Program-made: the position numbers and the translations under genes
Part shown: positions 4,246-59,300 of the stretch, piece after piece
Layout: each line of letters begins with the position of its first letter
Numbering within the stretch: the stretch's first letter is position 1
Notes under the pieces: model-generated
Seen by the model: only the letters and a program-made list of their open reading frames with translations
The model's database searches: none
What the model was told of the DNA's origin: nothing
Assembly (NCBI GenBank): GCA_038049695.1
Contig: CP142451.1
Location: forward strand, 45,333,001-45,397,000
Length of the DNA stretch: 64,000 nucleotides
Source: Cinnamomum chago
Taxonomy: Eukaryota; Streptophyta; Magnoliopsida; Laurales; Lauraceae
Reading direction: 5' to 3'

Positions 4246-4377
4246 TCGGTCGACCGAGAGGCAGGTCTCGGTCGACCGAGACAACTGCAGGCAAAAATTG
4301 CCTGGGAGCACCAACGGTCAGAAATATGACCGTTGTGTGTTCTCGGTCGACCGAGGCCTGTTTCTCGGTCGACCGAG
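4246..4377 (+). repeat. Four CTCGGTCGACCGAG palindromes in the U3 region
   Basis: Perfect or near-perfect 10-14-base palindromes lie at 4246-4258, 4267-4280, 4342-4355 and 4364-4377. Between them is another inverted repeat, CAACGGTCA...TGACCGTTG (about 4312-4335). The last ends about 23 bases upstream of the TATA-like box. The 3' LTR has the same set at 9555-9686. Confidence 0.9.
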
Positions 4378-4400
4378 AACTAGCCGTTGGCCACTTTTTC

Positions 4401-4408
4401 CTATAAAT
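4401..4408 (+). promoter_or_regulatory. Probable LTR TATA box
   Basis: CTATAAAT follows the palindrome cluster after CTAGCCGTTGGCC. The same relation (palindromes, AACGGCTAG, then TATA) appears on the minus strand of the solo LTR at 13871-13914, which supports it as a conserved promoter. The copy in the 3' LTR is at 9710-9717. Confidence 0.55.
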
Positions 4409-6063
4409 ATGAGTTCTTTCCCTTGCCAAAAGTTGGGAATTTTTAACCCCTCCTTGAGAGGATTTGAGGCATATCAAAAGGGAAAAGAACCAAGGGATGA
4501 AGGGGAAGATTAGGAAAGCTAAAGCTTGGATTAATGAAGTTAAACCACCAAGTAGGCTCTTCCTTTCTTAATCATATGTTTGCATGCTTTTGTTTTATTT
4601 TTGGTAAATCATTTCTAGCATGTTAAACTATGTTTGTGTTGTGTCCTTAATATATTTTATGTTTTGAGTTGATTTATTGTTTTGGATACAACATCACATG
4701 ATTCAATCCAAGTAGTACTTAACTTTGGTAAATCTAAGTAGATCATGTTAATGAAAGAACTTTGGTAAATCATATGTAACATGATCCATATACTTGGTTG
4801 AATCTTTGATTGTTGTTTTCCATCATAAGAACATCTCTCTCAAAACTAACTTATGTTTTGGATTCAACTTCTTTACAAATCATATGTTTTCATGTTTTGT
4901 TTTATCATTGGTAAATCTTTGTAACATGTTAATATATGATATGTTGTATCCTTAGCATATTCTATATTTTGAATAGATCTATTGTTTTGGATACATCACC
5001 ATTGATTCATCAAAGTAGTACTTTATTGGTAAATCTAAGTAGATCATGTTAATGAAAGATGTAACATGATTCATATACTTTGTTGAATCTTTGGGTGTTG
5101 TTTTTTCCATCATAAGAAAATCTCCTTCAAATGTATCTTATGTTTTGGATTCAACATCATTACAAATCATATGTGTATTATTGTTTTAATGCTTCACAAC
5201 TTGCCTTACTTTGATTGGTAAATCATTTTCAAGTTGTCCTTATAATTACATATGATTTGTCCCCTCTTTTCAATCAAATCTATTTTTATGTTTTGAGCTT
5301 CATTGATGATTTGATTGACATCCCTATGCATCACATGTTTAGAGCTAATCCATTACATACAACTTGTGTAACTTTGATATCATTAACAAGTTGTTACTTT
5401 TAACATGTGATTGCATTACTTCCTCAATCATAAATGTTTTTGAGCTAAAACTTTCAAAAGCCTTAGGCATACATTTATGAGCTTTCATTTTCTAAATGAT
5501 TGAGGACCACACACACACACTTCATATGTTTTCATCTTTGCATCCATAGTGTGAGTGTGTAGTTGTTATTCACTTCCATATCCGCCTATTTAAGAGGCAA
5601 TGTAATGAGCTTAATTGAATCTCCATCAAGTGTATGATAGACACTAATTAGAGAGATAACCAACCTTGTGGTTGAAGAGGTTATTGCTTAGCCTATAAAA
5701 GCATAATGTATAGGTTGATGTTAAGCCTTGAAAAACATCATTGTAAGGTTATTGCTTAGCCTTGGAAAGCATATTGTAAAGGTTATTGCTTAGCCTATTG
5801 AAAAGCATAAATAGTGGAAATCCGGTGGGGTGTTGGATCACAAGCCGGTAGTGGATGTAGGCATTGAGGCCGAACCACTATAAATACTTGTGTGATGGTG
5901 CTTGCTTTGTGGTGATTGTTTTTATTAGCTTCCGCATATTGTTTGATAATCATCACTTATGACTAGTTTGTTTTAAAGAAGTTAAAATTGTTAAAATTGG
6001 TCATAAAAGAAGCTCACCCTATTCACCCCCCCTCTAGGGTTCGGATCCCCATGGACTTACAAG

Positions 6064-6074
6064 TGGTATCAGAG
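6064..6074 (+). other. Primer-binding site (initiator tRNA-Met)
   Basis: TGGTATCAGAG lies two bases after the 5' LTR end at 6061. It is complementary to the 3' end of plant initiator tRNA-Met, which primes minus-strand DNA synthesis. The match weakens after 11 bases (AGGG instead of CC). Confidence 0.85.
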
Positions 6075-6228
6075 AGGGTTACTCCTTTTTAGGGCTTAAC
6101 AACCCGGAGTTGATCCTTGCTAGATTTGAACCCTAGTGTTGTGTTTATTGCATATCTTTTTAAAAGATTTCCACTATGTTTGAAAATGATATTTCCCTAG
6201 CCTCTTTGCACCACTCTAAGACTTTTCT

Positions 6229-8550: not shown

Positions 8551-8581
8551 TGTCAAAATTTTGACAAAAGAAGAGAATGGA

Positions 8582-9160: not shown

Positions 9161-11370
9161 TGTTAGGAATTTTCTAGATTGCAATTTGATGGATGCATTA
9201 TCATTCAAAGCATCATTTGATTTACACACTTGCATTGGTTTTAAATAAACTTGAAATCTTGTTTTATTCATGCATTGCTTTTAAGATTTGTAAAAGTATT
9301 GATTTATGCATGATTTGTTTTTTCATCTTGGATGCATTTGATTTAGAAAAGAGTTTTCAAGAAATCAAGCAAGCCTTTGTTTTAAAAGTTTTGAATCTTT
9401 TTAGGCTTTTTATGTCATGTTTTAAAATCCATTAGAATCTTTAAAACATGTTTTCCAAGCTTGATTTAGTGGCCAAAAGGTCCCCCAAAGAAATAACTTT
9501 GAAATGACAAAAGTTGGATTTTTTGTCAAAAGGGGGGTTGTCCCGGCAGTGTCGTCGGTCGACCGAGAGGCAGGTCTCGGTCGACCGAGACAACTGCAGG
9601 CAAAAATTGCCTGGGAGCACCAACGGTCAGAAATATGACCGTTGTGTGTTCTCGGTCGACCGAGGCCTGTTTCTCGGTCGACCGAGAACTAGCCGTTGGC
9701 CACTTTTTCCTATAAATATGAGTTCTTTCCCTTGCCAAAAGTTGGGAATTTTTAACCCCTCCTTGAGAGGATTTGAGGCATATCAAAAGGGAAAAGAACC
9801 AAGGGATGAAGGGGAAGATTAGGAAAGCTAAAGCTTGGATTAATGAAGTTAAACCACCAAGTAGGCTCTTCCTTTCTTAATCATATGTTTGCATGCTTTT
9901 GTTTTATTTTTGGTAAATCATTTCTAGCATGTTAAACTATGTTTGTGTTGTGTCCTTAACATATTTTATGTTTTGAGTTGATTTATTGTTTTGGATACAA
10001 CATCACATGATTCAATCCAAGTAGTACTTAACTTTGGTAAATCTAAGTAGATCATGTTAATGAAAGAACTTTGGTAAATCATATGTAACATGATCCATAT
10101 ACTTGGTTGAATCTTTGATTGTTGTTTTCCATCATAAGAACATCTCTCTCAAAACTAACTTATGTTTTGGATTCAACTTCTTTACAAATCATATGTTTTC
10201 ATGTTTTGTTTTATCATTGGTAAATCTTTGTAACATGTTAATATATGATATGTTGTATCCTTAGCATATTCTATATTTTGAATAGATCTATTGTTTTGGA
10301 TACATCACCATTGATTCATCAAAGTAGTACTTTATTGGTAAATCTAAGTAGATCATGTTAATGAAAGATGTAACATGATTCATATACTTTGTTGAATCTT
10401 TGGGTGTTGTTTTTTCCATCATAAGAAAATCTCCTTCAAATGTATCTTATGTTTTGGATTCAACATCATTACAAATCATATGTGTATTATTGTTTTAATG
10501 CTTCACAACTTGCCTTACTTTGATTGGTAAATCATTTTCAAGTTGTCCTTATAATTACATATGATTTGTCCCCTCTTTTCAATCAAATCTATTTTTATGT
10601 TTTGAGCTTCATTGATGATTTGATTGACATCCCTATGCATCACATGTTTAGAGCTAATCCATTACATACAACTTGTGTAACTTTGATATCATTAACAAGT
10701 TGTTACTTTTAACATGTGATTGCATTACTTCCTCAATCATAAATGTTTTTGAGCTAAAACTTTCAAAAGCCTTAGGCATACATTTATGAGCTTTCATTTT
10801 CTAAATGATTGAGGACCACACACACACACTTCATATGTTTTCATCTTTGCATCCATAGTGTGAGTGTGTAGTTGTTATTCACTTCCATATCCGCCTATTT
10901 AAGAGGCAATGTAATGAGCTTAATTGAATCTCCATCAAGTGTATGATAGACACTAATTAGAGAGATAACCAACCTTGTGGTTGAAGAGGTTATTGCTTAG
11001 CCTATAAAAGCATAATGTATAGGTTGATGTTAAGCCTTGAAAAACATCATTGTAAGGTTATTGCTTAGCCTTGGAAAGCATATTGTAAAGGTTATTGCTT
11101 AGCCTATTGAAAAGCATAAATAGTGGAAATCCGGTGGGGTGTTGGATCACAAGCCGGTAGTGGATGTAGGCATTGAGGCCGAACCACTATAAATACTTGT
11201 GTGATGGTGCTTGCTTTGTGGTGATTGTTTTTATTAGCTTCCGCATATTGTTTGATAATCATCACTTATGACTAGTTTGTTTTAAAGAAGTTAAAATTGT
11301 TAAAATTGGTCATAAAAGAAGCTCACCCTATTCACCCCCCCTCTAGGGTTCGGATCCCCATGGACTTACA
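9161..11370 (+). repeat. SIRE-like element 3' LTR
   Basis: Same length and content as the 5' LTR, offset by 5309 bases. The one difference noticed is C at 9960 where the 5' LTR has T at 4651. It is followed by the GAAAG duplication at 11371-11375 and then the rest of copy A's LTR. Confidence 0.93.
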
Positions 11371-11375
11371 GAAAG

Positions 11376-13900: not shown

Positions 13901-13938
13901 CCTCGGTCGACCGGCAAAGAGGTCTCGGTCGACCGGGA
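13901..13938 (-). repeat. Two GGTCGACC palindromes in the solo LTR
   Basis: CCTCGGTCGACCGG at 13901-13914 and CTCGGTCGACCGG at 13924-13936, directly upstream (element direction) of the TATA-like box. They occupy the position of the four-copy cluster in the 3852 element. Confidence 0.85.
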
Positions 13939-22080: not shown

Positions 22081-22085
22081 GGAAA

Positions 22086-25325: not shown

Positions 25326-27077
25326 TGTTGGAAACTAGGTGGGCCTTCCAGACAGGTTTCAAAAACTTTTGACCCACTTGATGTAGGGATCAATTATCTA
25401 GAAGGCAATAAACTCAATCCAGGATGCAATCCCTCAATCTCATAAACCATGTACAGCAACATAACCTATCTAGAAGATAGAAAATAGCACATAAACATGC
25501 AACCACGAAATCTACAGCATACAAGGATGTAGATATACCTTTGGAGCTTTGTAGTGCTCCAATGGAGAAGTTGAATTCTTTCTTTGATGATGAACACCTT
25601 CACTAATCAAACTAGAATCTCCAACACCTTTTGATCTTCCACGCTGACCCGTATCAGATTCTCTTTTCTCAAGAAGATGGTGGAATCTCCAAGAGAAAGA
25701 CCCTAAAGGAAACTAGAAGAGAAACTAGAAGAGGGAGAGGAAGAGAGATGTGCAACTTTTTCACACTTGAGTGGAATGGGCGTGAATCACTATTAGAATT
25801 AAGTGTTGGACGTCCAAGCCCCTTTTCCTCTTTTATAGCACTTAAGCAACCTCCTCTAATTGAAATAGAAGTCTTATTTCCACAACAATTAGTTGCTTAC
25901 TAAATGACTATTAGAAATCTTACTTCAAATATGATTAGTAACTTTCTCCTTTTCTAATTAAAATAGAAGTCCTACTTCTATTAATAATTAGCAACTTACT
26001 ATTACCACTATTAGAAGTCTCACTTCAAATAGAAATAGTAACTTTCTATTTCCTTTTAGAGTTATACCATAATTAGTATCTTTCTAATATCTTGGGCTAG
26101 CGTGGGGACCACTAGGGATTCCTTAGAAAGCTGGCTCCAACTGGGACATGCGACCCCACATCTCATGTGCAAACCGGGCCCATAGTTAATTGCAAATAAC
26201 TCCACTATATAAATGCAATTGCACTCCAGTCTTAGGAATAAATTACAATGAAGACCCTAAACTTCCCAATTACCACAAGTAGGCCCCTCCATCTATATCC
26301 ATGGATCAATTGGACCTGTCCACCAAAATAGATCCATATCTTATTATCCTTGAGCCCCAATTAATTATAGTGATCATTTGGTACCGATCCAATTAACTCT
26401 TAATTGGAATGGGTGCGCACTTACCAATGATAAATCCATTAATTGGCACAAGGGGATATTAAAGATAGATTCCATCTTGACCATTGAATGTTCCCACAGC
26501 TCTACTACCACGTACCCAAATCACCGAGGTATTGACCTACAATTGGCCTCACTCATTGGTGACTCAAAGCAAATGAATAGATAGAAACTTGAGTTCATTA
26601 ATGTCTCAGGATTATGAGCCTATTGCTAGGGAATTATGAGAGCAGACCTTAAAGTAAAGACAGTGTATATAAGGTGCTTCTCATGGTCATTCAATACATA
26701 CAATGTACCAGCACCATGATCCAGAATCTTACATTTCGATGATCGAGACAAATCACACTATCTCATAGTGATCAAAGTACTGCAACCTTGTCAGATGAGA
26801 TGCCCAATCTCATCACTGGTTGTGAAGATATTTAAGTATATGATTTGCAATACATATCTCCTGTATGTGGATCTCATCCACACACATGTATTACATCCAG
26901 TATACTTGTGGACTCCGGTTCATCTCATGAACCATTATGTCATTTGTATTAGTTATGTGCAAACAAGTAATAAAACACCATTCATCTCATGAAAGGAAAG
27001 CAACAATATGTATTGATAAATAAAGAAATTAGTCAATCTATTCATCATATACTGGTATTGAGACCATAAAACTAACA
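25326..27077 (-). repeat. Copy E 3' LTR
   Basis: Starts TGTTGGAAACTAGG and ends ATAAAACTAACA, next to the polypurine tract AAGTGGGAGAT (minus). It contains the perfect palindrome TTGGACGTCCAA at 25806-25817, just downstream of a minus-strand GCTATAAAA (25831-25839). The part at 25890-26940 forms an inverted repeat with 24182-25250. Confidence 0.9.
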
Positions 27078-27089: not shown

Positions 27090-30000
27090 GGCTCAATGTC
27101 AGTCAGGGTTGCATCTCATGCAGATCCCATCTACTTACTGCCCAAAGACTTTGGTACTCAAAAGGCTTAGTAAAGGGATCTCCCAGATTGTCTGTAGAGT
27201 CTATCTAGGTGATAGCAGTATCACCTCTCTTGCCCAATCTCTCTGAGCATTTGTTATAACCTCTGTATATGCTTTTGGCTCTTGGGTTACTTGGACTTAT
27301 CGACTGCCCTGCTGTTATCACAGTAAACTGTGAACGGCTGTCCTGCCAAAAGTACCACTCCAAGTTCCATAAGGAATCTCTTGAGCCAATATGATTCTTT
27401 AGTTGCTTCTCAAGCAGCTATAGCATAAACACATACCCATAAGTTGATATCTTGGAATCCTTATCTGACATGAATTCAGAATATGTGTAACTGACTGGAA
27501 TCAACTCATTATTGCCATAAAACAACATGTAATCTCTAGTCCTTCTCAAGGCTTTGAGAACACATCTTACAGCAGTCCAATGGTTAGGACCTGGGTTAGA
27601 CTGATATCTGCTGACTAAGCCTAATGCATAACAGATATCCGGTATAGTATATAGCATAGCATACATGAGGCTACCAACACCCGAAGAGTTTGGTATCGAC
27701 CTCATCTGATCCCTTTCCTCAGGTGTCTTGGGACACTGATCCTTGAAAGGTGCACTCCATGCCTGAAAGGTGTAATACCCTTCTTGGAGTCTTGCATAGC
27801 AAACCGTACTAGTACCTTATCTATGTATGCATATTTGGATAAGCCTATCATCCTATTCATCCGGTCTCAATGGAGTTTGATCCCTAGGATGCGACTGGCT
27901 TCTCCTAAGTCCTTCATATCAAAAGTCCTAGCCAACTAAATCTTTTACTGTTAACAACATCCATATACCACTCTCTAGGAGAATGATGTCGTCGACTAGA
28001 AAAATTACCCTGCCTCCTTTACTTTTCATGTACACCCATGACTTATCCGGATTTTGACAAAATCAACTGACTTGATTGCTTAGTCAAAACGAATGTTCTA
28101 GGTTCGGGATACCTGCTTCAGTCCATAAATGGACTTCTGCAGCTCACAAACTCTTTGCTTTTGGTTGTTTAGCTATAAAACAGTCTGGCTGCATCATATA
28201 GATGTCTTCCTCAAGATGGCCGTTGAGAAATGCCGTCTTGACATCCATTTTCCAAATCTCATGATCGAGATGAGCCGCAATGGATAAGAGTATCCTGATA
28301 GACTTGAGCATGGCTACCGGCGAGAAGGTTTCCTCATAATCGATATCTTCTTTCTGAGTATATCCTTTCGCAACAAGCTTGACCTTAAAGGTCTCAACTC
28401 TTCCATCTGGTCCTTTCTTTTCTCTTATAGACTCACTTGCACCCAATAGGTTAGATATTGGCAGGCAAGTCCACAAGTGTCCGACCTGATTAGAGTACAT
28501 AGACTCCATCTCAGCTTTCATAGCATCTTGCCAACGTCCCGAATCTATGTCATTAATTGCTTTATCATAGTTACAGGGATCTTGTTCCGGTTCTTCCGGG
28601 ACTGCCTCGTAACACTCTCCCAAGAACGAGAACCTGTCAGGGGGCCTGACTATGCTCCCACTATGACAAGGCACTGGTGTAATTACTGGGTTAGGTAAGG
28701 GCGCTTCTTCCTTAGGTTCAGTCATACTAGGATTTGGAATTGTTTGCTTTTGAATTTCTTCCAAGATCACCTTTTTCTAAAGGTTTCCGGTCTATCATAT
28801 AATCTTCTTCCAGAAAAACCGCATTAGTGCTCACCATCACTTTCTGCTCTCTGGGATTATAGAATAACCATCCTTTAGTTCATTTAGGATATCTTACAAA
28901 CGTGCATACTTCCGACTTCGCTTCCAACTGATCCGTCTTAACCTTTAGCACAAGTGCCGAACAACCCCAAATGTGTAAATGTTGTAGACTAGGCTTTCGC
29001 CCGGACCATAACTCTCGGGGAGTCTTAGGTATAGACTTAGATGGTACGAGGTTTAGTATGTACATCGCAATATCCAAGGCGTATCCATAAAAGGATATAG
29101 GTAATCCTCAGAAACTCAGTATAGACCTGATCATATCTAAAAGAGTCTGGTTCCTACTTTCTGCTGCTCCATTCTGTTGAGGCGTACTAGGTGCAGACAA
29201 CTGGGATAAAATCCCATTTCTAATAAGTATCCCATAAAATCAGCGAAGAGATATCCTCCTCTGGCCCTGATATTAATGGGTCCACACACATCAGTATACA
29301 CTAATTCCAACAAATCTTTGGCCCTATTGCCCTTTGATGAAAAAAGGGCCTTTTGGTCATTTTACCTTCCAGACAGGACTCGCAAACAGGCATTGGTTCT
29401 ACCACCAATGAAGGCAAGATACCATCTTTCACTAGCCTGTTAATCCTATTTAGGTTTATATGACCTAGCCTCAAGTGCCAAAGTTTTGTTGGATCAGATG
29501 AAGGTGATTTCCTCTTTAATAATGGTTTATTAATTGGTTCAGTATCATGTATCTCATACATTGTGGGATTAACAAATAAATTTCATTGATTACCTTGTCA
29601 GAATACATAAAAATACCGTATCTCTTTATGACAATTTCAGTACCAAGAGTAATAGAATAACTCTTATTCACCATACTAGAAACTGAAATTGAATTCCGCC
29701 GTAAAGACGGTACATATAACGTGTCTGACAAAACCAATATATCATTTGAAAAACATAATGTAATAACTCCCACTGAAACAACCTCTGCCTTAGCATCAGA
29801 TCCTAGGTTGACAATGATTTCTCCGTCACTGAACCTCTTGGTTTCCCTGAACCCCTGCAACGAATTACATATGTGATCAATTGCCCTGGAGTCCATACAC
29901 CAAGATTCTGAAGTACCAGTTGCAAAACTAACTTCAGAAACAAGTGACTCAATCATACCTGAGGTCTTCTTCTTAGACAGATATTCTGGACAATTCCTTT

Positions 30001-32877: not shown

Positions 32878-34551
32878 TGTGAGAACCCGACCCCTGATCT
32901 CTGGGATTAGTGTTGCTTTATTTGTGGATTAGTTCTTTTAGCGGGATTAGTGGTTGTTGGGTTGAGTTTGTGAGCTAGAATGGTTTTCTTCTAGTTTTGG
33001 GCTTTTGAGTGCTTTGGTAGCTTGTGGGGCCCTTTGGGGGTTCCCTTTTCGGCTTTGTATTTACTTGTGAGATTTTCCCGATTTGTTTCGTATTGTGTTT
33101 TTGGCCCGTTGCATTCATCTTGAGGAATCCTACAACTTTCATGTTGATCTCGTATCCATTTGAGAACCCAAAACCCGATTTCTTGGCCTTGAGGGCAAAA
33201 CAGTCATTTCACACCAAATCTGTACCCAAATCTCGATATTCCCGAAACCCGCGAAACATATACTTTTTGGAAACTAGATATTTCGACGATCATTTCTTCC
33301 TTCTTCGTCGAATCCATCCGAGGTACCGAATTGGATGATTTCAGCCACCCAAGTTCTTTAAGTTGTGGGACCCAAACCTCACTTGCTTATAAGAGAAACC
33401 CATCCCCTTCATTTCATTCCATTCCATTCCTCATTTTCCAGCACAAACCAGCAACCTAGGGCTTTCCTTGCCTTTCTCTTCTTCTTCTTGCTTCTTCATC
33501 TCCAAGCCACACCAAGAGTTCATCAATCAAGCAATGGAGATCACCAACCTCTTCCTCATCTTGAAAGCTTTCCATTGATACCATTTGTGAAGAGAACCCT
33601 CCATCACAAGACTTCCCTTGAGCTTACCTTGTCCATTAGAGGACCTTGCAAGTAAGTGTTCTTCTTCATCTTCTAGATTTGTAATCTTCTAGCCTTGGAG
33701 AAGTTCCACCTTGATTATTGAAAGGTTCCCTTGTCATTTCATTGTTTAACCCATTTTAGGGTTTGTTTTGGGGGTTTTTGTAGAAATTGTGGATCTTGAG
33801 CTTGAGAGGTGATTAGGAGCTTGATTTACTAGATTGGAACCCAAGGCAAGTGGATAAATGGATGGTTTTAATGTTATCAAAGTTTTATGAGAAAACCCTA
33901 AGTTTATTTCTTGTTCTTGATCATTGAATACATGCTTGCACATATGCTCCTTGTCACTTATATATGGATTTCGAAATTTGCATATTAATGGTTGTTTCTA
34001 TCTTGTTAATCTCTTGGAGAGGTATGCATTTCATTTGGTCAAGTTTGCTCATATGGTTTTATAAGGAATAGGATTGGTTTGGCCATCCATGGTTGTGTTT
34101 ATTAGTTACATTGACTTGAAGTTGATGCTCATTTAATGAGTTTTGCTAAATCATCTATTGTTATGGAAATGTGATCAGTAGTCCTTGTTTATCCCCAGAT
34201 TTTTGGCTACCTTGGACATAAGGCAAGTGAATGATTGGTGTATTTTGGGTTTTAAATAGTTGGTGAAACATTAATGACGTATTTATGATCATAGAGAAGT
34301 GACAATTCATAGCAATAAATGTTTCCTTGTGTTGCCTTGAATATGCCTATTATGTGAAATGGTTCTCTCCTCTCTTTGCTTGTATAGAATGTGATATAGA
34401 TGGAGGAGAATGGGATGGTTGTGGTTGGAGATTTGAGGTTATTTGAATGGAGATTTGTACTCCTCATTTGATGTATGAAAGTGGTTAAGAAAGGGTTGTA
34501 AAAAGGAAGAGTTGTGTGGAGCTGAACTGGTCCGAACTCAGGTTCTGGACA

Positions 34552-34802
34552 GTTCGCTCGAGCGACCTATCCAGAGAAGGGTTCGGAGCATTCCAGCAGC
34601 TTAGTCGCTCGAGCAAACCCCCTGGTCGCTCGAGCGGACATCCCAGAACTCATTCCAGAGAGTTGTTCGTTCGAACGCATTTAAATATTCGTTTGACCCA
34701 ATGAGTTCGTTCGAGCGACTTCAAATTCGCTCGAGCGGACCCACCCAGACACCCATTCCAGCGAGCGACTCGCTCGAGCGACCCTACAGTTCGCTCGAGC
34801 GG
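34552..34802 (+). repeat. TCGCTCGAGCGA palindrome cluster, F LTR1
   Basis: About nine copies, perfect or one to two bases off, start near 34554, 34603, 34626, 34665, 34687, 34706, 34727, 34770 and 34790. Variants include TCGTTCGAACG and TCGTTCGAGCGA. Most spacings are close to 20 or 40 bases. LTR2 (about 40116-40390) has one extra copy from a 22-bp duplication. The cluster is about 1.1 kb downstream of the TATA-like box, so it would be transcribed. Confidence 0.9.
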
Positions 34803-35339
34803 TGCGGGTCGTCTGGCATAGGCTGCGTTTGGGAAAATGTTCAACTGTTCTAATGATTGGGTCTATTCTCTGGAAACCCCTCTATATCAAGGAGATTTAT
34901 TAAGCATTGTATGAGGCCATTGGAGGAAGAAACCATCTCACAAAGATTGCATTCGAAGTTTTGAAACTTCAAAGTGCATAAGGAGCCCGGAATGTCTTCA
35001 AACTCAAGAAGTACCAAGTATTGATTATAATCGACATACGGGACCCCCATTCACTTAAATAAATCTTGAAACCGATATTTTTACCCGAAATTGTTATAGT
35101 TCATTGTTTCACCTCATTTTCTCGATATTTGCATCACATGACTTGTTTTCCCGAAAACATTGAAGTTACACTAGTAACAGTTATTTCTCCCGAAATGTAT
35201 TGCCCGATATGAAGTGACAGTGTGCCCTTGAGCACCCCCGTTTTACCCATTTATTTATTGTACTTGATTTACTTGCATATATCCCGATTTCTTATTCTCC
35301 AATGTAAATCCAGTTATTATTATATTGTCTTCTGTTCTT

Positions 35340-35990
35340 TGTACACGCTCACGTTTTAAATGAATGCCGGTTGGGCGAATACCCATGCTTTTACATATGT
35401 TTCAAACGATCGATGGTTTTACTAGATTTATGTGATTACACATGTTTTAAATGAATACCCGAATTGTTAAATATCCGTGCTTTGTTTTAAATGACATTTG
35501 GCTTGTGAGATTCCTATGTTTATACCGTTTTAAATAATTACCCGATTTGTCAAATATCCATGCTTTGAAATATGTTTCAAATGACACTTGTTTGCCAGAT
35601 CCCTACGTTTATACCTGTTTTAAACGATACCCGGTTCGTTAAATATCCATGCGTTGAAATATGTTTAAATGAACACTAGTTTTGTCAGATTTCTTTGGTT
35701 ACACCTGTTTAAATGAACACCCGGTTTGTTAAATATCCGTATTTTCACATATGTTTCAAATGGACATTTGTTTTGCCAGACTGCTATGAATACCTGGTTT
35801 GTTGTATCCTTATGTTTTTACCTAAGTTTCAAATGAACGTTGTTTTTCCATACCGCTATATTTATACATGTTTTAGACGAACACCCGATTGTCAAATATC
35901 TATGATTATAGATGATGTAAATGAACACAGGTTATTAGATATTCATGTTTTACCCATGCTTGAAATGAATACAGGTTTTTCCCGAGATTC
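35340..35990 (+). repeat. Degenerate 60/120-bp tandem repeats in F LTR
   Basis: Repeated blocks alternate between AAATGAA(C/T)ACCCG.TTGTTAAATATCC and TTTCAAATGACA(C/T)TTG....CCAGAT, each with a TTTTAAATG or ATGTTT linker. Five to six composite units are visible. The same array is in LTR2 (about 41330-41980). The related solo LTR at 53218 retains almost none of it. Confidence 0.78.
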
Positions 35991-36615
35991 CCGACTTTGC
36001 ACCCGTTTAATTATATGCAGCATTTGATCGAATAGCATGATTTATCTTATGTTTTATTCTTCAGTATATTTGTTATCTTTTCATCCACCTGCCAGACCGT
36101 CGTGTCTGACCCACTACTTTTGGTACTCAGGTTCAGATTTCTTCGCCCCGAGTTGAGTGCTTTTGTTGGCTGTATAGCCATCCTTTGCAGGTTAGTTTGT
36201 CGGCTATGTCATGTAGACATTGAGCTTGACATCGGAGCTACGTCACATTTGGGTAGTAGTTTATAGCTTATTGTTGTATGGCTTTTATTAGCCTTTTCTT
36301 GGGATTCTTAATTAATGTACATTGATAATTGTAACTTGAACATATTTGGGAATGTAATATCCTGTTACCGTCAGCTCGGTAATTTATTGTGATGGTTACT
36401 CCAGTCTGATATGATTCTTGATATAATAGCTATGTGCTAAAGGTTAAGTGCGACGCGGAATCCGATGGCCACGGACTTCGGGTCGCAACGCCACAAATGC
36501 TTCCGCAAAATATTCAGAATGTGTTGTCTTCACACACGCGGATCCTGGGAGAAGTAAAATACATTTATGCTTAATCCCATTCCCGCCCCCGAGGTTCTGT
36601 TTCGGGGGCGTGACA

Positions 36616-38443
36616 GACTGGTATCAGAGCGGGCAGGTTTCTAGGAAATAAAACACTCTAGGAACCTTAAGTCGTGTGGTGAGGACTCGTTTTCTTTTCT
36701 TTAGTTTTTGTTTTTGTGAGTTTGTGCCTGTTTTTCTTCTAGTGGGGGAGACTATCTTCGTCTCCTTTTCTTGTTCTTGTTGTTAGTGAATTTGGGGGAC
36801 CAAATTCTTTTCTAGTGGGGGAGAATTTAGTGTCTCCGCACCCACATTTAGTTCCTTTGCCTTGTTTTCGCGCCAGAGAGTCAGAGTTTTGTGGACTTAG
36901 CATGTGTTTCTCGAAGGGCTTTGGCAGAATTTTCAGCTTTTGGATGTCACAGATGGAGCTTTAGGAGGAATTTGCGACCAATTGTTCGTCAGTAAGGAAT
37001 GTGAGCAGCATATGGAGACCCGATTACAGTTGATCATGTATCGTCAGAGGATTCATCAGGCAAGTAAGTGTGGATTTTTGGATAAACTTGGATTATTTTC
37101 CTAAGTCAGAAGACTCCATAGGCCGGATAAGTGGTGGACTTTATGAGATCTGAGGTGACTTTCAGTGGTGCAGCTTCAAAAGATGTGAAAAGTTAGAAAT
37201 TTCTTGAGCATTGATGAGCTTGTGACAGGGAATTGTTGGAGGAGGTTTAACAGTTGCAGTTATGATGGTGAGTCAGCTCAGCAGGATGTATCATTGGATG
37301 ATTAAAAGCATAGGAAATTAGTTTTATGCAGCAGTGTAGAGAGTTACATGTGGAATTGGTTGTTACTTGATCACATGATGAGAAGATTTAGTGGACTTTA
37401 CCGACTTGTAGAACATCAGTTTGGGGCAGAGTACAGATACAAGCAGGAGAATCATCACCTATGGACAATGACAGTTGAAAGATTCAGGGAAGAACGAATT
37501 TGACAGAAGCACGCCTCACGAAGCTTGGACAAGTGGAGTAGCATGATAGTTAAAGTTAGAGTTGGAAACTTACAGAGCTGTGAACATTGTGTTTTCAACG
37601 AGCAGATAAAGATGATTGAAGTGTTCAGAGGACCGTTCAAATATTTGATTGAATCAGCTTGGTATATGAAGGAGTGACAGATTTCCAAGTCATTCACCTC
37701 GAAGATTGCGCATTGGCAGGAGGCCTAATTTCGACAAGTTTGACAGAGACGACAGAAGAGTACAGAGGACTGGACGACATTGCCTAAAGTAAGAGATATC
37801 TGGTAGTACTAAACGTCACCAATTTTCCGAAGTCAGGGCAGAAAGAAGAATAAGACAATATTTCAAGGTAAAGGCATGTCCAAGACTGGCAGAGACCGAC
37901 TGTTGTGCAGTGGATCAAGAGCAATGGACAGAAACAGTTAGAGCTTCAAATGTTGAAGAATGGTGAAAGGACAAGCATGATTGTGTCAGAGACTGATTGC
38001 TGTGCAATGGATCAAAAGTACCGAGCAGAAATAGTTAGTACCAGCAAGAGTTAACATTGAAGATTGTGCAATTGACATGAGACCCTAGCTTTGACAGTGG
38101 TGATGAAGTCGACAGAATTGTTCCAAGAATTTTCTACATCAGGATGGCTAGAAGCGAGAGACTTGGTGGAACTTAGAAGGAGTCAGAGATAGCAAATTCC
38201 TTGAGCAGTCAGATTGGTAGAGCAGTAACAGATTTGAGCCAGTGGTGGAATGTCTGACAACTGTTGATGGTTGACCGAGGAGTTCTACAGCGAGGATGAC
38301 CCAGCGAGTCCAGTGCTTCCGAGAGGACCAGTTGGAGTAGTCGTTTGAGGTTTTCTTTTCGAAGTGTGGGATTAATGTCCCCGCTTGTTTTTGAGTTTGT
38401 TTAGTTCATTTGGAGGACCAAATGTTCTAAGGGGGGGGGAGGA
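36616..38443 (+). mobile_element. F internal region 1, non-coding
   Basis: Begins GAC then TGGTATCAGAGC (36619-36630) and ends with a polypurine tract at 38429-38443. Two CTAGTGGGGGAGA blocks lie near 36740 and 36815. No frame exceeds 100 codons and none resembles a retroelement protein. Internal 2 is nearly identical. Confidence 0.82.
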
Positions 38444-41400
38444 TGTGAGAACCCGACCCCTGATCTCTTGGATTAGTGCTGTTTTATTTGTGGATTAGTT
38501 CTTTTAGCGGGATTAGTGGTTGTTGGGTTGAGTTTGTGAGCTAGAATGGTTTTCTTCTAGTTTTGGGCTTTTGAGTGCTTTGGTAGCTTGTGGGGCCCTT
38601 TGGGGGTTCCCTTTTCGGCTTTGTATTTACTTGTGAGATTTTTCCGATTTGTTTCGTATTGTGTTTTTGGCCCGTTGCATTCATCTTGAGGAATCCTACA
38701 ACTTTCATGTTGATCTCGTATCCATTTGAGAACCCAAAACCCGATTTCTTGGCCTTGAGGGCAAAACAGTCATTTCACACCAAATCTGTACCCAAATCTC
38801 GATATTCCCGAAACCCGCGAAACATATACTTTTTGGAAACTAGATATTTCGACGATCATTTCTTCCTTCTTCGTCGAATCCATCCGAGGTCCCGAATTAG
38901 ATGATTTCAGCCACCCAAGTTCTTTAAGTTGTGGGACCCAAACCTCACTTGCTTATAAGAGAAACCCATCCCCTTCATTTCATTCCATTCCATTCCTCAT
39001 TTTCCAGCACAAACCAGCAACCTAGGGCTTTCCTTGCCTTTCTCTTCTTCTTCTTGCTTCTTCATCTCCAAGCCACACCAAGAGTTCATCAATCAAGCAA
39101 TGGAGATCACCAACCTCTTCCTCATCTTGCAAGCTTTCCATTGATACCATTTGTGAAGAGAACCCTCCATCACAAGACTTCCCTTGAGCTTACCTTGTCC
39201 ATTAGAGGACCTTGCAAGTAAGTGTTCTTCTTCATCTTCTAGATTTGTAATCTTCTAGCCTTGGAGAAGCTCCACCTTGATTATTGAAAGGTTCCCTTGT
39301 CATTTCATTGTTTAACCCATTTTAGGGTTTGTTTTGGGGGTTTTTGTAGAAATTGTGGATCTTGAGCTTGAGAGGTGATTAGGAGCTTGATTTGCTAGAT
39401 TGGAACCCAAGGCAAGTGGATAAATGGATGGTTTTAATGTTATCAAAGTTTTATGAGAAAACCCTAAGTTTATTTCTTGTTCTTGATCATTGAATACATG
39501 CTTGCACATATGCTCCTTGTCACTTATATATGGATTTCGAAATTTGCATATTAATGGTTGTTTCTATCTTGTTAATCTCTTGGAGAGGTATGCATTTCAT
39601 TTGGTCAAGTTTGCTCATATGGTTTTATAAGGAATAGGATTGGTTTGGCCATCCATGGTTGTGTTTATTAGTTACATTGACTTGAAGTTGATGCTCATTT
39701 AATGAGTTTTGCTAAATCATCTATTGTTATGGAAATGTGATCAGTAGTCCTTGTTTATCCCCAGATTTTTGGCTACCTTGGACATAAGGCAAGTGAATGA
39801 TTGGTGTATTTTGGGTTTTAAATAGTTGGTGAAACATTAATGACGTATTTATGATCATAGAGAAGTGACAATTCATAGCAATAAATGTTTCCTTGTGTTG
39901 CCTTGAATATGCCTATTATGTGAAATGGTTCTCTCCTCTCTTTGCTTGTATAGAATGTGATATAGATGGAGGAGAATGGGATGGTTGTGGTTGGAGATTT
40001 GAGGTTATTTGAATGGAGATTTGTACTCCTCATTTGATGTATGAAAGTGGTTAAGAAAGGGTTGTAAAAAGGAAGAGTTGTGTGGAGCTGAACTGGTCCG
40101 AACTCAGGTTCTGGACAGTTCGCTCGAGCGACCGTGACAGTTCGCTCGAGCGACCTATCCAGAGAAGGGTTCGGAGCATTCCAGCAGCTTAGTCGCTCGA
40201 GCGAACCCCCTGGTCGCTCGAGCGGACATCCCAGAACTCATTCCAGAGAGTTGTTCGTTCGAACGCATTTAAATATTCGTTCGACCCAATGAGTTCGTTC
40301 GAGCGACTTCAAATTCGCTCGAGCGGACCCACCCAGACACCCATTCCAGCGAGCGACTCGCTCGAGCGACCCTACAGTTCGCTCGAGCGGTGCGGGTCGT
40401 CTGGCATAGGCTGCGTTTGGGAAAATGTTCAACTGTTCTAATGATTGGGTCTATTCTCTGGAAACCCCTCTATATCAAGGAGATTTATTAAGCATTGTAT
40501 GAGGCCATTGGAGTAAGAAACCATCTCACAAAGATTGCATTCGAAGTTTTGAAACTTCAAAGTGCATAAGGAGCCCGGAATGTCTTCAAACTCAAGAAGT
40601 ACCAAGTATTGATTATAATCGACATACGGGACCCCTATTCACTTAAATAAATCTTGAAACCGATATTTTTACCCGAAATTGTTATAGTTCATTGTTTCAC
40701 CTCATTTTCCCGATATTTGCATCACATGACTTGTTTTCCCGAAAACATTGAAGTTACACTAGTAACAGTTATTTCTCCCGAAATGTATTGCCCGATATGA
40801 AGTGACAGTGTGCCCTTGAGCACCCCCGTTTTACCCGTTTATTTATTGTACTTGATTTACTTGCATATATCCCGATTTGTTATTCGATCTATGAGTCGGC
40901 ATCACTAAGCTTGGATACCTTGTCGGTTTGATCCACCGACTTGGAAATCCCTCTCCCGTCCCGCCAGCTGCAGTTTGGATCCCGATACCCGGTTATTGCC
41001 GTGGTCCCGTCCCGATACCCGGTTCGCTACCGTGGTCCCGTTCTCGTATATTTATATTGTATATATGATTAGCGATGATTCTCCTCACCTGGTGTGACTG
41101 AGATCAACGTCCCGTTATACTCTTGTCAGTTCGGTGATAGAGGACTTAGCTTCTTGTGATTGCCATCTTGCCAGTTCCCGATTCCTTGGATACCCGACAT
41201 GTTTTATATTGCTTACTTGCTTTCCGATAAATGATTCGTTTCCTTTATGAAAGTTGTTATTTAAACAAGTGTTCATATTCTCCAATGTAAATCCAGTTAT
41301 TATTATATTGTCTTCTGTTCTTTGTACACGCACACGTTTTAAATGAATGCCGGTTGGGCGAATACCCATGCTTTTACATATGTTTCAAACGATAGATGGT

Positions 41401-46559: not shown

Positions 46560-47111
46560 ATTGTTATCAGAGCCATACCTCATCTCTAATCATGTTAGAC
46601 GAGCAAGCTTGCTCCAATCTTTGCATGAGATGCGAAGAAGATGAAGCAAGGGCTATGTAAGGATCAATTTTGATGGATTTGCTTGGTTTGATAGTAGATT
46701 CATGTTTGGATAGTCACAAAAGAGTTTAATAATGATGGAAGGATGGTAGGAAGCCATTGGAACACTTTGGAAGTGATTTGGGGAAGAATGAACACGAAAC
46801 AGAAAACCCATGTTGCAGGTTTTTGTCAGTCCGGTCGACTTGGCCCGTGCTAGGTCGACCGGCTGACTTGCAGGTCGGTCGACCGAGCCCCCTGGCCGGT
46901 CCACCGAGCCTTCTGTGCAGAATGCTGCAGAAACTAATTCTTCCAGTTTCGGGTCTTCTTTTACTTCCTGTTTTTCCAGCATTATTTGGCAGTCTATTTT
47001 GTGATTTGTATGGTTGTATGAGATACTAACTTGCAGATGATTATGTCCTCTCCATATGGCCCACAAGTCTTTTGCTTTCTTTTTATGGTGATTGGTTTAT
47101 TTAAGGCTAAA
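46560..47111 (+). mobile_element. Copy D primer-binding site and leader, truncated
   Basis: TTGTTATCAGAGC at 46561-46573, then leader homologous to the complement of 32010-32540, with GGTCGACC palindromes at 46831-46887. Homology stops at GGCTAAA (47111). Nothing of D's gag-pol is present to the right. Confidence 0.85.
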
Positions 47112-52661: not shown

Positions 52662-53217
52662 CAAGTGTAAACAAATTAATACTAAGATCGATTGACTGAA
52701 CATGCAATTAATACCCCACCTAAAAGTTTAATTCAGGTCCGAGATTTCCATTGACATGCTAAGACATTACGAAATGCCTTTATGTGCATTTAAGGCTCGG
52801 ATGTCGGGTGTAAGATGATATTAGTGCTCCTGAAGATGTTGAGATCTGTAAGCCTTAATGGATCATATATTTGGCTCAATAATGTCTCAAGCATGCCTCT
52901 GAAACTCCAAGGGGTGTTACACAACTGAAACTACTCCATTTTGTAGTCCGAGGATCAAGGTCATGTGAGTCCAAGTTACAAGGCCAATTCCTAAGTCTAA
53001 GGTACTAGGTTCAAGCTTGAAGAATCATGATTAGTTTTTATCTAATTGTCCACTAGAGGGGGGAAAACAATGTCCCTAAATATGGTGCACAAGCCCCAAG
53101 AATATGTTGGAAGAGAGTGGAAGAAAAGGGTCTTAAATAGTCCAAGACCAAGGCCCCAAATAGGGCCAACACTTTACATAAAATGTGAGCCACTCTGACC
53201 AACTGAGTGTAAGACCT
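52662..53217. other. Unassigned sequence
   Basis: AT-rich; no reading frame, LTR or repeat recognised. It continues at 56340-56360 and 59444-60578 when the two solo LTRs and their duplications are removed, so these three pieces are one ancient locus. Confidence 0.5.
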
Positions 53218-56200
53218 TGACCCAAGAGAACTCGATTAGTGTTAATTAAGTCGTGTGTTAGTCTGAAGCGTGATTAGTAGTCTTTGACTAAGTTGGGTTT
53301 GGAATATCTTTTGATATAGTTTTGGGGAATTTTGAGTGCTTTGGTGACTAGTGGGGCCCTTTGGGGGTTCCTTTTATGCCTTTGCGTTTACTAGGGAATT
53401 TATCGGAGATTCTTGTATTAATTTTTTTAATCCCGTTTTGTTTATCTTGTTAATCCTTACAACTTTTATGTTGATCCTGTGCTCGTCCGAGATCCCGAAA
53501 CCCGATTTCCTAGCCTTGAGGGCAAAACAGTCTTTTTACACTGAATCTACCCAAAACTTGATATCCCCGAAACCCGCAAAACATATACTTTTTGGAAACT
53601 AGATATTTCGACGATCACTTTTCTCTTCTTTGTCGAATTTATCCGAAGTCTCGAAAACCATGATTTCAGCCCAATGAGATTATTAATAATGGAGCCCACT
53701 CCCCACTTGTTTATAAAGAAACCCTTCTCCCTCATTTCCCTTTTTTCCAGCCCAAACCAAACACCAAGCTAGGGTCTCCCTTCCTTATTCTTCTTATTGT
53801 TTCTCCATCCTCAATCCACTCCCAAACTTGTACCAATATGAGATTTGAGGCCATCATCTTCTTCATCTCTTTGAGAGCTCTCTCTTAATAGCATTTGTAG
53901 AGGAAACCACCTACTCCAAGACCTCCTTTGGTACTAACCTAGCATTTTGAAGAACTCTCATGTAAGTAATCCTTCCCCTCTTTTGATATTGTTTTCTCCT
54001 AGCCTAAGAGAATCTCCATTTCCATTGTAGACGCTTCTTCCTCCCCATTCCATGTTTTGACTCTTATAGGGTTTTGTTTTGGGGGTTTTTGCTTATAGCT
54101 TGGACCATTGACTTGGAAAGCTTGATTTGAGCTTGGATTGCTTATTAGAGACTATAAGGCAAGTGGATGAATTGATTTTTATGACCTTTCAATGATTTTA
54201 TAAGGAATGTGATTTATTGTATTGTTTTCCACTCATGCCCATTTAATGCATTGACTTGAAATAAATGTTCATGAAAGAGCCTCGATAGTGTATTTATTGT
54301 CATGGAAATGCTTTGATTTATAGCATTCAATGTTATCTTGTTCTATCTCAAACGTACTCTTGTGTGTAGTGCTTTTCTTTCCTCTTTTCCTTGTATTTGG
54401 ATGTGATATTGTTGGAGGAGGTTAGAATGAATGTTGTTGAAAATTTGATATTGATTTGGATGAAATTTTGAATTCATCATTTGGTGTATTCAAGGGGCTA
54501 AAAAGGAGATTTTAGAAGGAGGAGAAATGTCCCGGAACCAGTTTCTGGACAGTTCGCTCGAACGAACATGACACATCACTCGAGCAAAGTATCCAGAAAA
54601 GGGTTCGTGCCATTCCAGTGGACAGTTCGCTCGAGCGGACCCTTCACCGCTCGAGCGAACCCTCCCAGAACTCGTTCCAGAGAGTAGTTAGTTCGAGCGA
54701 ACCGAATCTTCGCTCGAGCCAACCACCTACTGGATGAGTTCGCTCAAGCGACCTCAACTTCGCTCGAGCAAACCCACCCAGACAATCATTCCAGAGAGTT
54801 CACCGCTCAAGCGAACCTCCAGTCCTCTCAAGCGATGGGTACTGTTCACCTGGGACTGTTTTGGGAGCACTAATGAAATGTCTAAATGTTTGAGAAAGGT
54901 CTGTTGAGAGCCCTATTGTAATGAGAAGAACCGTTCTTATGATTGAACATCCATTCGTGAAGAAAACCACATCACAAAGAATCTGTTTGAAGTCTTGAAA
55001 ATCCGAAGTGTATAAGGACCCCGAAATGTTCCCAAACTCAAGGAGTACCAAGTTTCTATCGATTTAGACATACGGGATCCCTATTCACTTCGAACAAAAC
55101 TTGAGCCTGAAACTTCGATTGTTTATTGTACCTTACCGTTCCCGAGATTTATACTACACGGCTTGTTTTCCCGAAAGCATCGAAATTACACTTGTAACAG
55201 TTACTCATCTTGAAGTGCATTGCCCCACATGAAATGACAGTTGTGCCTTTGAGCACCCCCGTCCTGCCCGTTTATTTACTTGTACTTAATTTATTTACAC
55301 ATGTCTCGATTTGTTATTTGACCTATGAGTCGGCACCACTAAGCTTGGATAACCTTGTCGGTCTGATTCACTTATTTGGAGATCCCCTTTCGTCCCGCCA
55401 GCTGCAGTTTGGATCCCGGTACCTGGTTATTACCGTGGTCTTGTCCCGATTCCGCAGATTGCTACTGTGGTTCGCGATGCCCGGCTCGTTACCGTGGTCA
55501 TGTATAGTATATTATATATATATATGTATATTTCATTGTACCTCCTCACTATGGTGACTGAGGTCAACGCCTTGATCTTGCTATGTCACTTTGGTGATAG
55601 AGGATTTAGCTATGTGTGGTTGCCTTCTTGCTTGTTTCCCGACTTCCTTGGATACCCATACATGTTTTACATTGTACTTATGCTTTCATTAAATGATTTG
55701 ATTCTTTTATGAAGTTATTGATCGAACAGGTTTAAATGCTTTTAAAGGTAAATGTATTTATTATTGAATTGTTATGTCTTTTCACCCATTTGCCAAACCG
55801 TCGTGTTTGACCCACTCTTTGGTACTCAGGTCCCGTTGTCGGTTACCTCGAGGAGGAGCCAGAGGAGGCGGTTGGTGAACCGCAACGCTTAGTTGAGTGG
55901 CGTGCTGATGATGTCGTGTAGACATTCGATTGCTATGAGAGACATAATATTTTGGGAACGTTTAACCATTCTTTGGAAATTGGTATTTTGTTTATATTGG
56001 CTTTTGTTGGCCTCTATTTTTGGGAATGTAATTAAATGATCTCTTGTATAAACTTTAACTTACTTTTGGGAAACATGCTAATGATCATTGCTCATTCTGA
56101 TACAGTATTATACTTGTGTTATTCTCCTTATGACTAGAGATGGTTTGAATATTTGATTTGCTACATGCTTCCGCACTTAAAAGAAATGTTCATATATGGT

Positions 56201-56334
56201 TGTGATATCCTCACCGCGGACACCTGTGGGAAATTAAATAAATGTGCACACCTTACACTCATCACCTAACACCAATCTCACCAATTAGTCCCGATCCCGG
56301 ATTAGTTCGATAGACCTGGTCCGGGGTCGCGACA
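53218..56334 (+). mobile_element. Solo gypsy-like LTR (3117 bp)
   Basis: TGTAAGACC... to ...GTCGCGACA with perfect CTGAG duplications at 53213-53217 and 56335-56339 and no internal region, so it arose by recombination between the two LTRs of one element. It is a diverged relative of F LTRs, sharing GGGGCCCTTTGGGGGTTCC, TCGACGATCA and the block equivalent to 40880-41280. A TATA-like TTTATAAAG is at 53710-53718. The LTR fragment at 1682-1797 belongs to this family. Confidence 0.92.
54550..54837 (+). repeat. CTCGAGCG palindrome cluster in solo LTR
   Basis: About ten degenerate TCGCTCGAGCGA copies (for example near 54552, 54577, 54625, 54648, 54690, 54709, 54739, 54760, 54803). The position relative to TATA is like F's, but many copies carry one or two changes (CTCAAGCG, CTCGAGCA), consistent with greater age. 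Confidence 0.85.
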
Positions 56335-56360
56335 CTGAGCATACCATGAGTCTTGTTAAG
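56335..56360. other. Spacer between two solo LTRs
   Basis: CTGAG (56335-56339, right duplication of the left LTR), 16 bases, then TTAAG (56356-56360, left duplication of the right LTR). Two separate insertions thus fell 21 bases apart. Confidence 0.88.
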
Positions 56361-59300
56361 TGTCACACCCCCCAAACCTGATTAGAGAATAAACCGGATC
56401 CGGGGAGTGAGATTTTGGGCTAATTAAATTTTTTGCCCTTTTTGCCAACAGATCATAAGTCCTTTGTAAGGATATTTCACTTGAAACTTCATTAAATATA
56501 GGAATTGCAAAACTTATCATAAATCAAGTCATATTTAATATCAAAGCAAGGAAATACTCAATCTCATTAACAATTAAAGTTGAATCAAAGAACAAGTAAA
56601 ACTAAACAAAGACAATTAGATTATTAACAAATGGTCATCCCAATATCCTAGACCATTTAAAGAACCATAAAGTCAATAATGAGAAAGATCCAACAAGAAA
56701 TAATAAATGATTAATAATAAATCTAAAGGAAGTCCTATGAAGCTCTCTAGTGCTGGGTAAGATGACGCTACTGTACGTCATGATCACGCTACTCTCGCTC
56801 CTCCTCCGCCGCCGGTTGGAGATCCTCTAGGATCTCCTCATCTGCTGGCTCCTCGTAGTACTCACATGTGTTGTCTGCACACTAAGAAACAGAGTCAACG
56901 ATATATTGAGCAATAGATAAGCAAAGTATAAATAAATATAGACTGTCTCAAATATCATAATAAAGACAAGTATATAATCATGTGAATTCAAGGAAGATAA
57001 ACTCGACATAAAAGCATGAATAATAATCACAAGAGTCAATATCAAGATATCCTAGCATCAACTAGCAATAACCACCTTTCACACATTGCAAATGCAAGAA
57101 TTAAGAAGAGAGACTCTGAGGGTGTCCAAGCCACCTCCCGGGGTATCAGTAACAATCCTGTCCATACTACTGATACCAAAGTCTTGCTCCAAAGGGATCC
57201 AAATTCCCAGTCCTAGGAATAGCAGCACGGTCCAAGCCCGCTCCCAGCTATTCTATGCCATGGACACTGTCCAAACCGACTACCCATCCCGATGTCCGAG
57301 TAATCGGCCCATCTCTAAACCCCCAAACTACAACTGGTCATGGCATGCAATCCTTCCCACAGTGGACCCTACCGTGGTCGGATAAAAATAGTGAGTTAGT
57401 GTTTGACGCGAGAATCAAGACAAGTTAGCATAGGGATTATCTCATTTGAGGCAAGTTACAAGACAAGTCCAAACCACCAAATAATCCCTTACATTCTAAC
57501 CACACATGTTTATCAAGTAAATGACACAGGGTGCTAGGGTACACTCTAAGTACAGTCCAAGTCCTAATTCTACAAGGATTTATATTTCATAATTAATTAG
57601 GTATTTTATGCTAGGTGAGTGTACAAAGAAACATCATTAACGGATATGATCATAAGTCACGGAGGAAGTTACAATCCAAACCTAGGCAAGTGTTGTCATC
57701 CATGTACCATACATGATCTAACAGAGTGTGTGGAAATTGGATCAACGATGCATCCATGAAGAATCCTTGGCGTACAATCATGTTAGGCATCAATTGAATC
57801 AATTCCATACGCATTCGGTTAAACCATGCATAATACACGATTACCTAGATGACCATCAAAGCACACCTAGCTTTGATTTCATTCCCATTAATGGTCATGT
57901 GAGAGTAGGTTCAAGGGATCCAATATCTAAGGCCCAAACTTATGTTAAGAGTCTCTTTTCCCAAAAGACAGGGTTTGAATCATTAATCTACATGTCTAAC
58001 TTATTTCTCCATCTCTGAACGTTATGAAACCTGAGCCATTGGATTCTACATCTCGAGGTCTTTCCATGGATAAATAAAACATAGAAATCCAACGGTCAGA
58101 TTAAAAGTTATGGTTGTCCGAAGTTGTCAAATTCTACCACAGTATTCAATCGATCAGACAGGAGGTCCGATCAATCCAACAGGAGTCATTCGATCAATCG
58201 GACAGGAAGTCTGATCAGATCTTGGACACCTCCCAATTAGCTGCAGTTGTCCTCTATCCTATCGATCGGATCTGTCCGATCGATCGGACAGCGGACGACT
58301 CACAGTTAAGGGATATTGTTCCATGTCTGATCGATCCCACAATTTGTCCGATCGATCCGACAATGAACAGTAACCCTTGAATTGGGTTTTCGCCCTCTTC
58401 TTCCTCCAACCATTCCAATGGTTAATCATTCATAAACTGAGCCTCCATGCTCCCCCAACAATCACATTTATTCACAGTAACATGTTATCTAACAATTAAA
58501 CTAATTAAACAATTAGGTCAAACCAACCAAATCCTAACCTAACATGTTAATACCAAATCAATACAAGAAACAAGCTTGGAATTTGGGTATTCTAGCATAT
58601 AATCATCATCAATCAATACAATGCATATCTACTTGCCTCAACCAAGAAGAAGAAGAAATTGGGGAAAACTAGAGGAGAATAACCCTTCTACACAAAATGC
58701 TACCAATCTACACACAAAAGCTTTCAAACAAAACCTAGAACGCGAAGGAAAAGAAAGAGCAAGGGAAGAATCTTGTACAAGCTTAAATCTAAGCAGAAGG
58801 AAGAAAGATTAGGAAATATGATGGTAGGAAAAGCTTACAAACTTAGATCAATGGAGAGAGACGATCGAAAGGAAGAAGATAGGCGGTTTGGATTGTTGAG
58901 TTGGGCTTCCTTTGACTGGTAACCAAGCTTGAGAAGATGAAGAAGGAGGAGAATGTTGCTAGCTTCTTTTCGGTTACAAAGAATGAAAGTACGAAAAGAT
59001 TAGGGTAATTGTAGGTTAAAGAAGATGGGAAAGGGGAAATGACAAGTTTACCTTAAATAAGTGGGTCCGGGAAGAAAAGGATTATTTGAGGGGTTTCTGG
59101 TCATCGGATCGTGACAAGCCAAGAGATAAGCATGATCTACACAAGGAGACCTTTCCAATGATCCCAAAATCACAGAGATTGAAACTTTTTGGAAAAAGAC
59201 CCAATTTTTCCCTAAATTACAAATTACACCCCCCCCCCCCCCCCCCGCGCTAAGGTTAAACATGCTCAGAATCGTACGTAACTCCGCGGACACAATTCTA

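Follow-up and report, generated by a model that had tools for sequence, protein, structure and literature searches.

Why should long terminal repeats (LTRs) of otherwise unrelated sequence carry clusters of short, self-complementary, CpG-centred motifs? The question is raised by a 64,000-nucleotide stretch of the Cinnamomum chago genome (assembly GCA_038049695.1, contig CP142451.1, positions 45,333,001 to 45,397,000 of the forward strand), referred to here as the window, which holds a Sirevirus-type (SIRE-like) retrotransposon, a second copia element (copia-2) and the gypsy or gypsy-like LTRs C, D and E. A preliminary description of the window, made from its letters, had listed such clusters and proposed that independent families converged on one architecture, with dimeric transcription-factor sites or RNA dimerisation signals as possible roles. 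The analysis reported here supports the convergence, finds that sites for a dimeric protein fit best and disfavours RNA dimerisation.

Palindrome clusters and their common frame

The palindrome clusters of the window are real and lie far above chance. Relative to shuffled sequence (100 shuffles for GGTCGACC), GGTCGACC occurs 14 times with a shuffled mean of 0.23, none of the 100 shuffles reaching 14, and GCTCGAGC occurs 17 times with 0.11 expected; these clusters lie where the preliminary description had placed them (Table 1). Enrichment over dinucleotide-shuffled sequence, which had been left to be checked, holds for perfect CG-centred palindromes of at least 10 bp (37 versus 5.05), the corresponding GC-centred palindromes being at chance (9 versus 11.95), and perfect palindromes reach 20 bp rather than the 16 bases given earlier. 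With an observed/expected CpG ratio of 0.49 across the window, the palindromes form CpG-dense sites amid CpG-poor surroundings. The CGATCGATCG cluster assigned to LTR E stands as an array, but a degenerate one with a single exact copy; a perfect four-copy array of this type is present at locus L011, elsewhere in the genome.

Besides 12 large contigs, the genome surveyed (1.06 Gb) has two small contigs, 707,525 and 152,753 bases long, which are probably the mitochondrion and the plastid. Whole-genome counts, which take in many copies of the same families, were compared with a control consisting of the same letters read backwards. GGTCGACC was found 97,078 times (control 12,208) and GCTCGAGC 52,107 times (control 10,501). 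The three cores are versions of CG-N-TCGA-N'-CG, and this whole frame, CGNTCGANCG, occurs 116,278 times (control 7,173). Self-complementary sites account for 103,963 of these (89.4%); among the first 100 frame sites listed, 94 are self-complementary, with 41.6 expected from independent halves. Divided by the middle base, the genome holds 48,732 copies with N = G (CGGTCGACCG; control 368), 35,424 with N = C (CGCTCGAGCG; control 75), 18,040 with N = A (CGATCGATCG; control 470) and 1,767 with N = T (CGTTCGAACG; control 852), so that the middle base is G, C or A and T is hardly used. What is kept is therefore a site that combines symmetry with a preference for certain letters, and not mere symmetry. 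Pairing extends beyond the 8-base core at offsets 1-4 for GGTCGACC, at offset 1 for GCTCGAGC and at offsets 3 and 6 for GATCGATC, with no consistent symmetry farther out from the core.

In a genome sample drawn at round coordinates from 12 contigs (18 pieces of 10 kb each), CG-centred palindromes of at least 10 bp were likewise enriched (54 versus 18.4), and GC-centred ones were not (37 versus 35.5).

Unrelated surroundings, spacing and switches of core

The clusters were grouped after masking all sites within two mismatches of the frame (71 sequences, threshold E 1e-3); this masked grouping replaced an unmasked one, which had joined families through the palindromes themselves. After masking, the SIRE group, copia-2 and the gypsy C/D pair remain separate. 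Because these masked clusters cannot be aligned with one another, a single shared insert is unlikely, and one ancestral insert behind all the clusters was rejected for the window families. A common frame and a recurrent spacing of about 21 bp in unalignable surroundings uphold the proposal that independent families converged on one architecture. The description of the families as unrelated applies to SIRE, copia-2 and gypsy, but not to gypsy C and D, which are relatives (74% over 322 bp), and the diverged SIRE-like solo LTR is a relative of the SIRE LTR and groups with it when masked. Nor does each family have a palindrome of its own, as SIRE and copia-2 carry one in common.

A spacing of about 21 bp corresponds to two turns of the DNA helix. 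Core by core, among the first matches listed (all from contig 1, within its first 5.5 Mb, some of them tandem duplicates), gaps of 19-23 bp make up 32 of the 65 neighbour gaps no longer than 200 bp for GGTCGACC, 17 of 39 for GCTCGAGC and 14 of 24 for CGATCGATCG, the last with five further gaps at 41-42 bp and two at 62-63 bp. At least one gap of 19-23 bp occurs in 16 of 22 sequence groups, though some of the groups with a single member may be distantly related to larger groups. By this grouping the window copy of copia-2 was scored as a miss; the family, aligned with 20 other copies, gives spacings of 20, 24 and 21 bp.

Cores are switched between homologous loci. With the palindromes masked, loci L169 and L170 can be aligned to either side of their arrays (70-73% identity, E 2e-13 to 7e-7). 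L169 carries two GATCGATC 21 bp apart; the corresponding position of L170 holds GGTCGACC with a 22-bp spacing, and L170 has a third GGTCGACC that has no counterpart in L169. The second pair, L171 (two GATCGATC) and L172 (one GCTCGAGC), aligns on one side only (77%, E 8e-19). In both pairs, which have no assigned element type, the cores differ in both halves. The compensatory changes envisaged in the preliminary description are seen between the two homologous loci of each pair.

Constraint was assessed from the differences between copies at non-CpG palindrome positions and in spacers, using 2000 column permutations. Non-CpG palindrome positions differ less than spacers in gypsy D (0.051 versus 0.111, with 2 of 2000 permutations as low) and in copia-2 (0.021 versus 0.066, 61 of 2000), the difference in gypsy C not being significant (0.033 versus 0.060, 256 of 2000).

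Host elements of the arrays

The Sirevirus-type element has an LTR pair (3846-6061 and 9155-11370) of 99.87% identity, a 5-bp target duplication GAAAG (read by eye), and a primer-binding site (PBS) TGGTATCA at 6064 with the primer site TGGTATCAGAG. It carries the marks of a Sirevirus: five copies of the polypurine tract (PPT) AGGGGGAG at 8585, 8781, 8913, 9089 and 9151, before the 3' LTR; an inverted repeat at the junction of the last PPT and the 3' LTR, CCATCAAATTGCAA before and TTGCAATTTGATGG after; and a palindromic repeated-motif (RM) cluster directly upstream of the TATA box. No reading frame of at least 130 amino acids was found between its LTRs, and the element looks non-autonomous. It also appears in tandem LTR-internal-LTR chains, its array returning at constant steps on contig 1, for example of 5,256 in one set of four matches and of 5,345 in another. 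A 281-base piece of the element had 2,914 candidate copies, of which 40 were scored; 24 of these tie for the top score at full identity, both window copies among them.

Copia-2 is a Ty1/copia element by its RVT_2 reverse transcriptase and copia-type gag (Pfam). The Sirevirus octamer AGGGGGAG was not found on the minus strand near 27077, where there is one PPT of the classic type; the stretch 27418-27816 gave no match in the Pfam search. From their order, the reading frames would belong to the same element as the leader array. The copia-2 cluster, previously described as lying in an LTR, sits instead in the leader that follows it. Near-identical 1,050-bp tandem repeats (95-98%) of LTR pieces adjoin another copia element at 21030-24182.

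Gypsy D is assigned to Ty3/gypsy by RVT_1 and RNase H lying between paired D matches at L047 and L048, with RVP_2 additionally in L047; the matches are on the same strand, 9.3 and 11.0 kb apart, and their pairing as LTRs is deduced from this spacing. Gypsy C is probably also Ty3/gypsy, judging by its LTR similarity to D. It forms a tandem LTR-internal-LTR-internal-LTR chain at 32878-44899, with further LTRs from 38444 and 44425, the third cut short and both interiors short. In both C and D, a TATA-like box precedes the array by about 0.8-1.4 kb. LTR E may belong with the gypsy elements through L011, which has the same core and resembles the C leader over two short stretches.

Table 1. Positions of host elements and palindrome arrays in the window
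Feature	Positions	Strand	Exact copies (positions)	Remarks
Sirevirus-type 5' LTR	3852..6061	+		second LTR at about 9161-11370
Four GGTCGACC palindromes	4246..4379	.	4 (4248-4374)	start-to-start 22, 75, 22; upstream of TATA box near 4411
Four-palindrome GGTCGACC array in second LTR	9555..9688	.	4 (9557-9683)	repeats the 5' LTR array
Two CGGTCGACCG, 22 bp apart	13904..13935	.	2 of GGTCGACC (13905-13934)	in diverged SIRE-like solo LTR, itself on the minus strand
copia-2 LTR, bounds approximate	25326..27077	-		single classic PPT GTGGGAG, then AT before TGTTAG; read directly
copia-2 reading-frame pieces	27418..30676	-		gag 29516-30676, RVT_2 28144-28776 (Pfam)
copia-2 leader array, GGTCGACC sites	32206..32283	-	2, plus degenerate (32209-32281)	downstream of LTR and PBS
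Leader array in second copia-2 copy	46831..46890	+	2 (46853-46884)	
Gypsy C LTR	32878..36616	+		3' end set by PBS at 36619
GCTCGAGC array, gypsy C	34552..34802	.	6 (34556-34800)	about 1.2-1.4 kb downstream of TATA-like TATAAGA near 33389
GCTCGAGC array, second gypsy C LTR	40116..40390	.	7 (40122-40388)	
Gypsy D solo LTR	53208..56334	+		target duplication CTGAG (read by eye)
GCTCGAGC array, gypsy D	54550..54837	.	4 (54629-54769)	nine sites, intact or degenerate
Degenerate CGATCGATCG array, gypsy-like E LTR	58148..58365	-	1 (58277-58286)	

Elsewhere in the genome, large GGTCGACC arrays recur in one family of no assigned kind (L010:3640-4120, L024, L133, L139, L141 and L145), with up to nine exact copies at L133 and, at L010, several sites flanked by GTGTGCTCGG...CCGAGTACAC. 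MULE or SWIM pieces near L010 and L013 had pointed to a possible DNA-transposon home for both; the L013 cluster proved to be SIRE-like. At L022:8284-9364, in a stretch tied to no element, there are seven perfect palindromes of at least 10 bp with GGGCGCCC, six of which are TGGGCGCCCA.

Explanations of the arrays

Symmetry, letter preference, constraint and spacing all fit a dimeric reader of the half-site CGVTC (V = A, C or G), and we give a probability of about 0.5 to the explanation that the arrays are bound by a dimeric DNA-binding host protein and act as cis-regulatory sites. A host protein, or a small family of them, would read both strands of CG-V-TCGA-B-CG as a dimer, and with sites about two helical turns apart the bound dimers would lie on one face of the helix and could act together. 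Unrelated LTR retrotransposons would, each on its own, have gained such arrays or multiplied them: ahead of the TATA box in Sireviruses, in the presumed transcribed part of the LTR in gypsy elements and in the leader of the copia element, the dimer model needing no fixed position relative to the start site. Related sequences would then have switched the middle base pair across whole arrays, perhaps tracking a shift in the binding protein.

Several observations weigh against this explanation. AT- and TA-centred palindromes are also over-represented in the genome sample (159 versus 79.7 and 129 versus 63.6), and the L022 array is built on GGGCGCCC, outside the CG-N-TCGA-N'-CG frame. Relatives do not contribute independent spacing counts, and the best periods over all pairs within 130 bp differ from core to core (11.0, 10.25 and 20.75 bp). 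The position of the array relative to the TATA box varies by family, some lying more than 1 kb downstream. Palindrome CpGs of gypsy D decay like spacer CpGs (0.196 versus 0.198), and paired changes within families are near independence, with 10 versus 7.6 expected in D (36 copies) and 0 versus 0.24 in C (21 copies); compensatory change thus finds no backing there, and decay after insertion dominates. Nine of the ten D double changes are C-to-T with G-to-A; the tenth, at L029, is two-sided, with GGTCGACC where the window copy has GCTCGAGC. RNA folds of all five clusters beat their shuffles by a wide margin (z -14.7, -8.1, -11.3, -3.5 and -5.9), which leaves room for a structural role. The binding protein itself is putative and could be an activator or a silencer.

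The RNA folds bear on the main rival, in which adjacent copies form transcript hairpins, or DNA cruciforms, that feed small-RNA silencing. Any two copies are complementary, and the available parts of PMC5311732 and PMC10760457, citing Bousios et al. (2016), describe the LTR palindromes of maize Sireviruses as small-RNA hotspots in a palindrome-rich regulatory region able, like the arrays here, to form hairpins; the maize palindrome is a different one, CACCGGAC...GTCCGGTG, and the LTR elements named in those parts are Sireviruses, one passage adding Helitrons. However, a hairpin needs no more than complementary stretches joined by a loop; it calls for neither a fixed CGVTC half-site nor the near-exclusion of N = T, nor for steps near 21, 42 and 63 bp. 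Sense-strand decay at palindrome CpGs (TG 91, CA 119 in 1,728 CpG cells of three families) shows no excess of the G-U-tolerant kind that RNA pairing would favour, and we regard hairpin silencing as unlikely. The same decay counts against RNA dimerisation or kissing-loop packaging signals, the other role suggested in the preliminary description. Self-complementary sites that follow the presumed start, as in gypsy and copia-2, would suit such signals, but in Sireviruses the arrays precede the TATA box and each element has several sites, not one loop, which makes packaging signals highly improbable.

Methylation control would make use of the three CpGs in a palindrome, one every 4 bp, recognised either by a methyl-reader of the host or by an anti-silencing protein of the VANC type that the element encodes and whose targets are specific to its family. 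The CpG-dense sites in CpG-poor surroundings agree with this, and the whole-array switches resemble the evolution of VANC targets in Arabidopsis VANDAL elements, in which, according to the available parts of PMC5735166, short motifs multiplied in non-coding DNA change together between families. Unlike the arrays here, those of VANC belong to DNA transposons and to an element-encoded protein, the VANC21 motifs share one orientation and YAGTATTAY is not self-complementary. One palindrome common to the unrelated SIRE and copia-2 also speaks against methylation control, and a factor of SIRE's own would have to come in trans, as its interior lacks any reading frame of at least 130 amino acids; this explanation seems to us less likely than hairpin silencing. 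Slightly less likely again is a mutational by-product free of selection, in which slippage copies the sites and template switching during reverse transcription perfects near-palindromes. The variable number of sites in arrays and the two-sided change at L029 from GCTCGAGC to GGTCGACC are what it would produce, but it does not explain why unrelated families have one frame in common, why the centre is CpG, why N = T is nearly absent or why non-CpG sites are constrained, and the D double changes are almost all of the C-to-T with G-to-A kind, with a total near expectation.

The Sirevirus part of the design is already known. Bousios et al. (2010) described the RM boxes of Sireviruses which, in the available parts of PMC2829016, are palindromic, CpG-rich, multi-copy and upstream of the TATA box, and are described as specific to Sireviruses and lacking in the classic copia elements compared. 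The grapevine (Vitis) motif given there, CGGTCGACCG, is identical to that of the SIRE-like LTR here, and that of Tnd-1, ACAATCGATTGT, is also TCGA-centred; each LTR of the element here has four exact copies, compared with at least eight copies in all per published element. In contrast to those parts of the published account, the arrays here extend to gypsy LTRs and to a copia element outside the Sireviruses, lie downstream of the TATA box as well, are spaced at about 21 bp and have switched cores. A search of open-licence papers turned up no account of this design for gypsy elements; CGGTCGACCG was found only in PMC2829016 within the papers searched for it, and palindromes are not mentioned in PMC11656987, on plant LTRs and machine learning. 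The design in gypsy and other copia elements, its spacing and the switches between homologous loci look new.

It is a tentative and rather doubtful suggestion that Sireviruses, other copia elements and gypsy elements converged on one regulatory grammar, with phased CG-V-TCGA-B-CG sites read by a dimeric protein family whose changing preference led whole arrays to exchange their central base pair in concert. Which changes to a reporter or probe should matter can be predicted from the spacing of 21 bp and from the switched cores. If one protein does act on unrelated elements, it would give a name to a common activator or silencer of retrotransposons that this genome holds in great abundance, and would help to explain the upkeep of the Sirevirus palindromes known since 2010.

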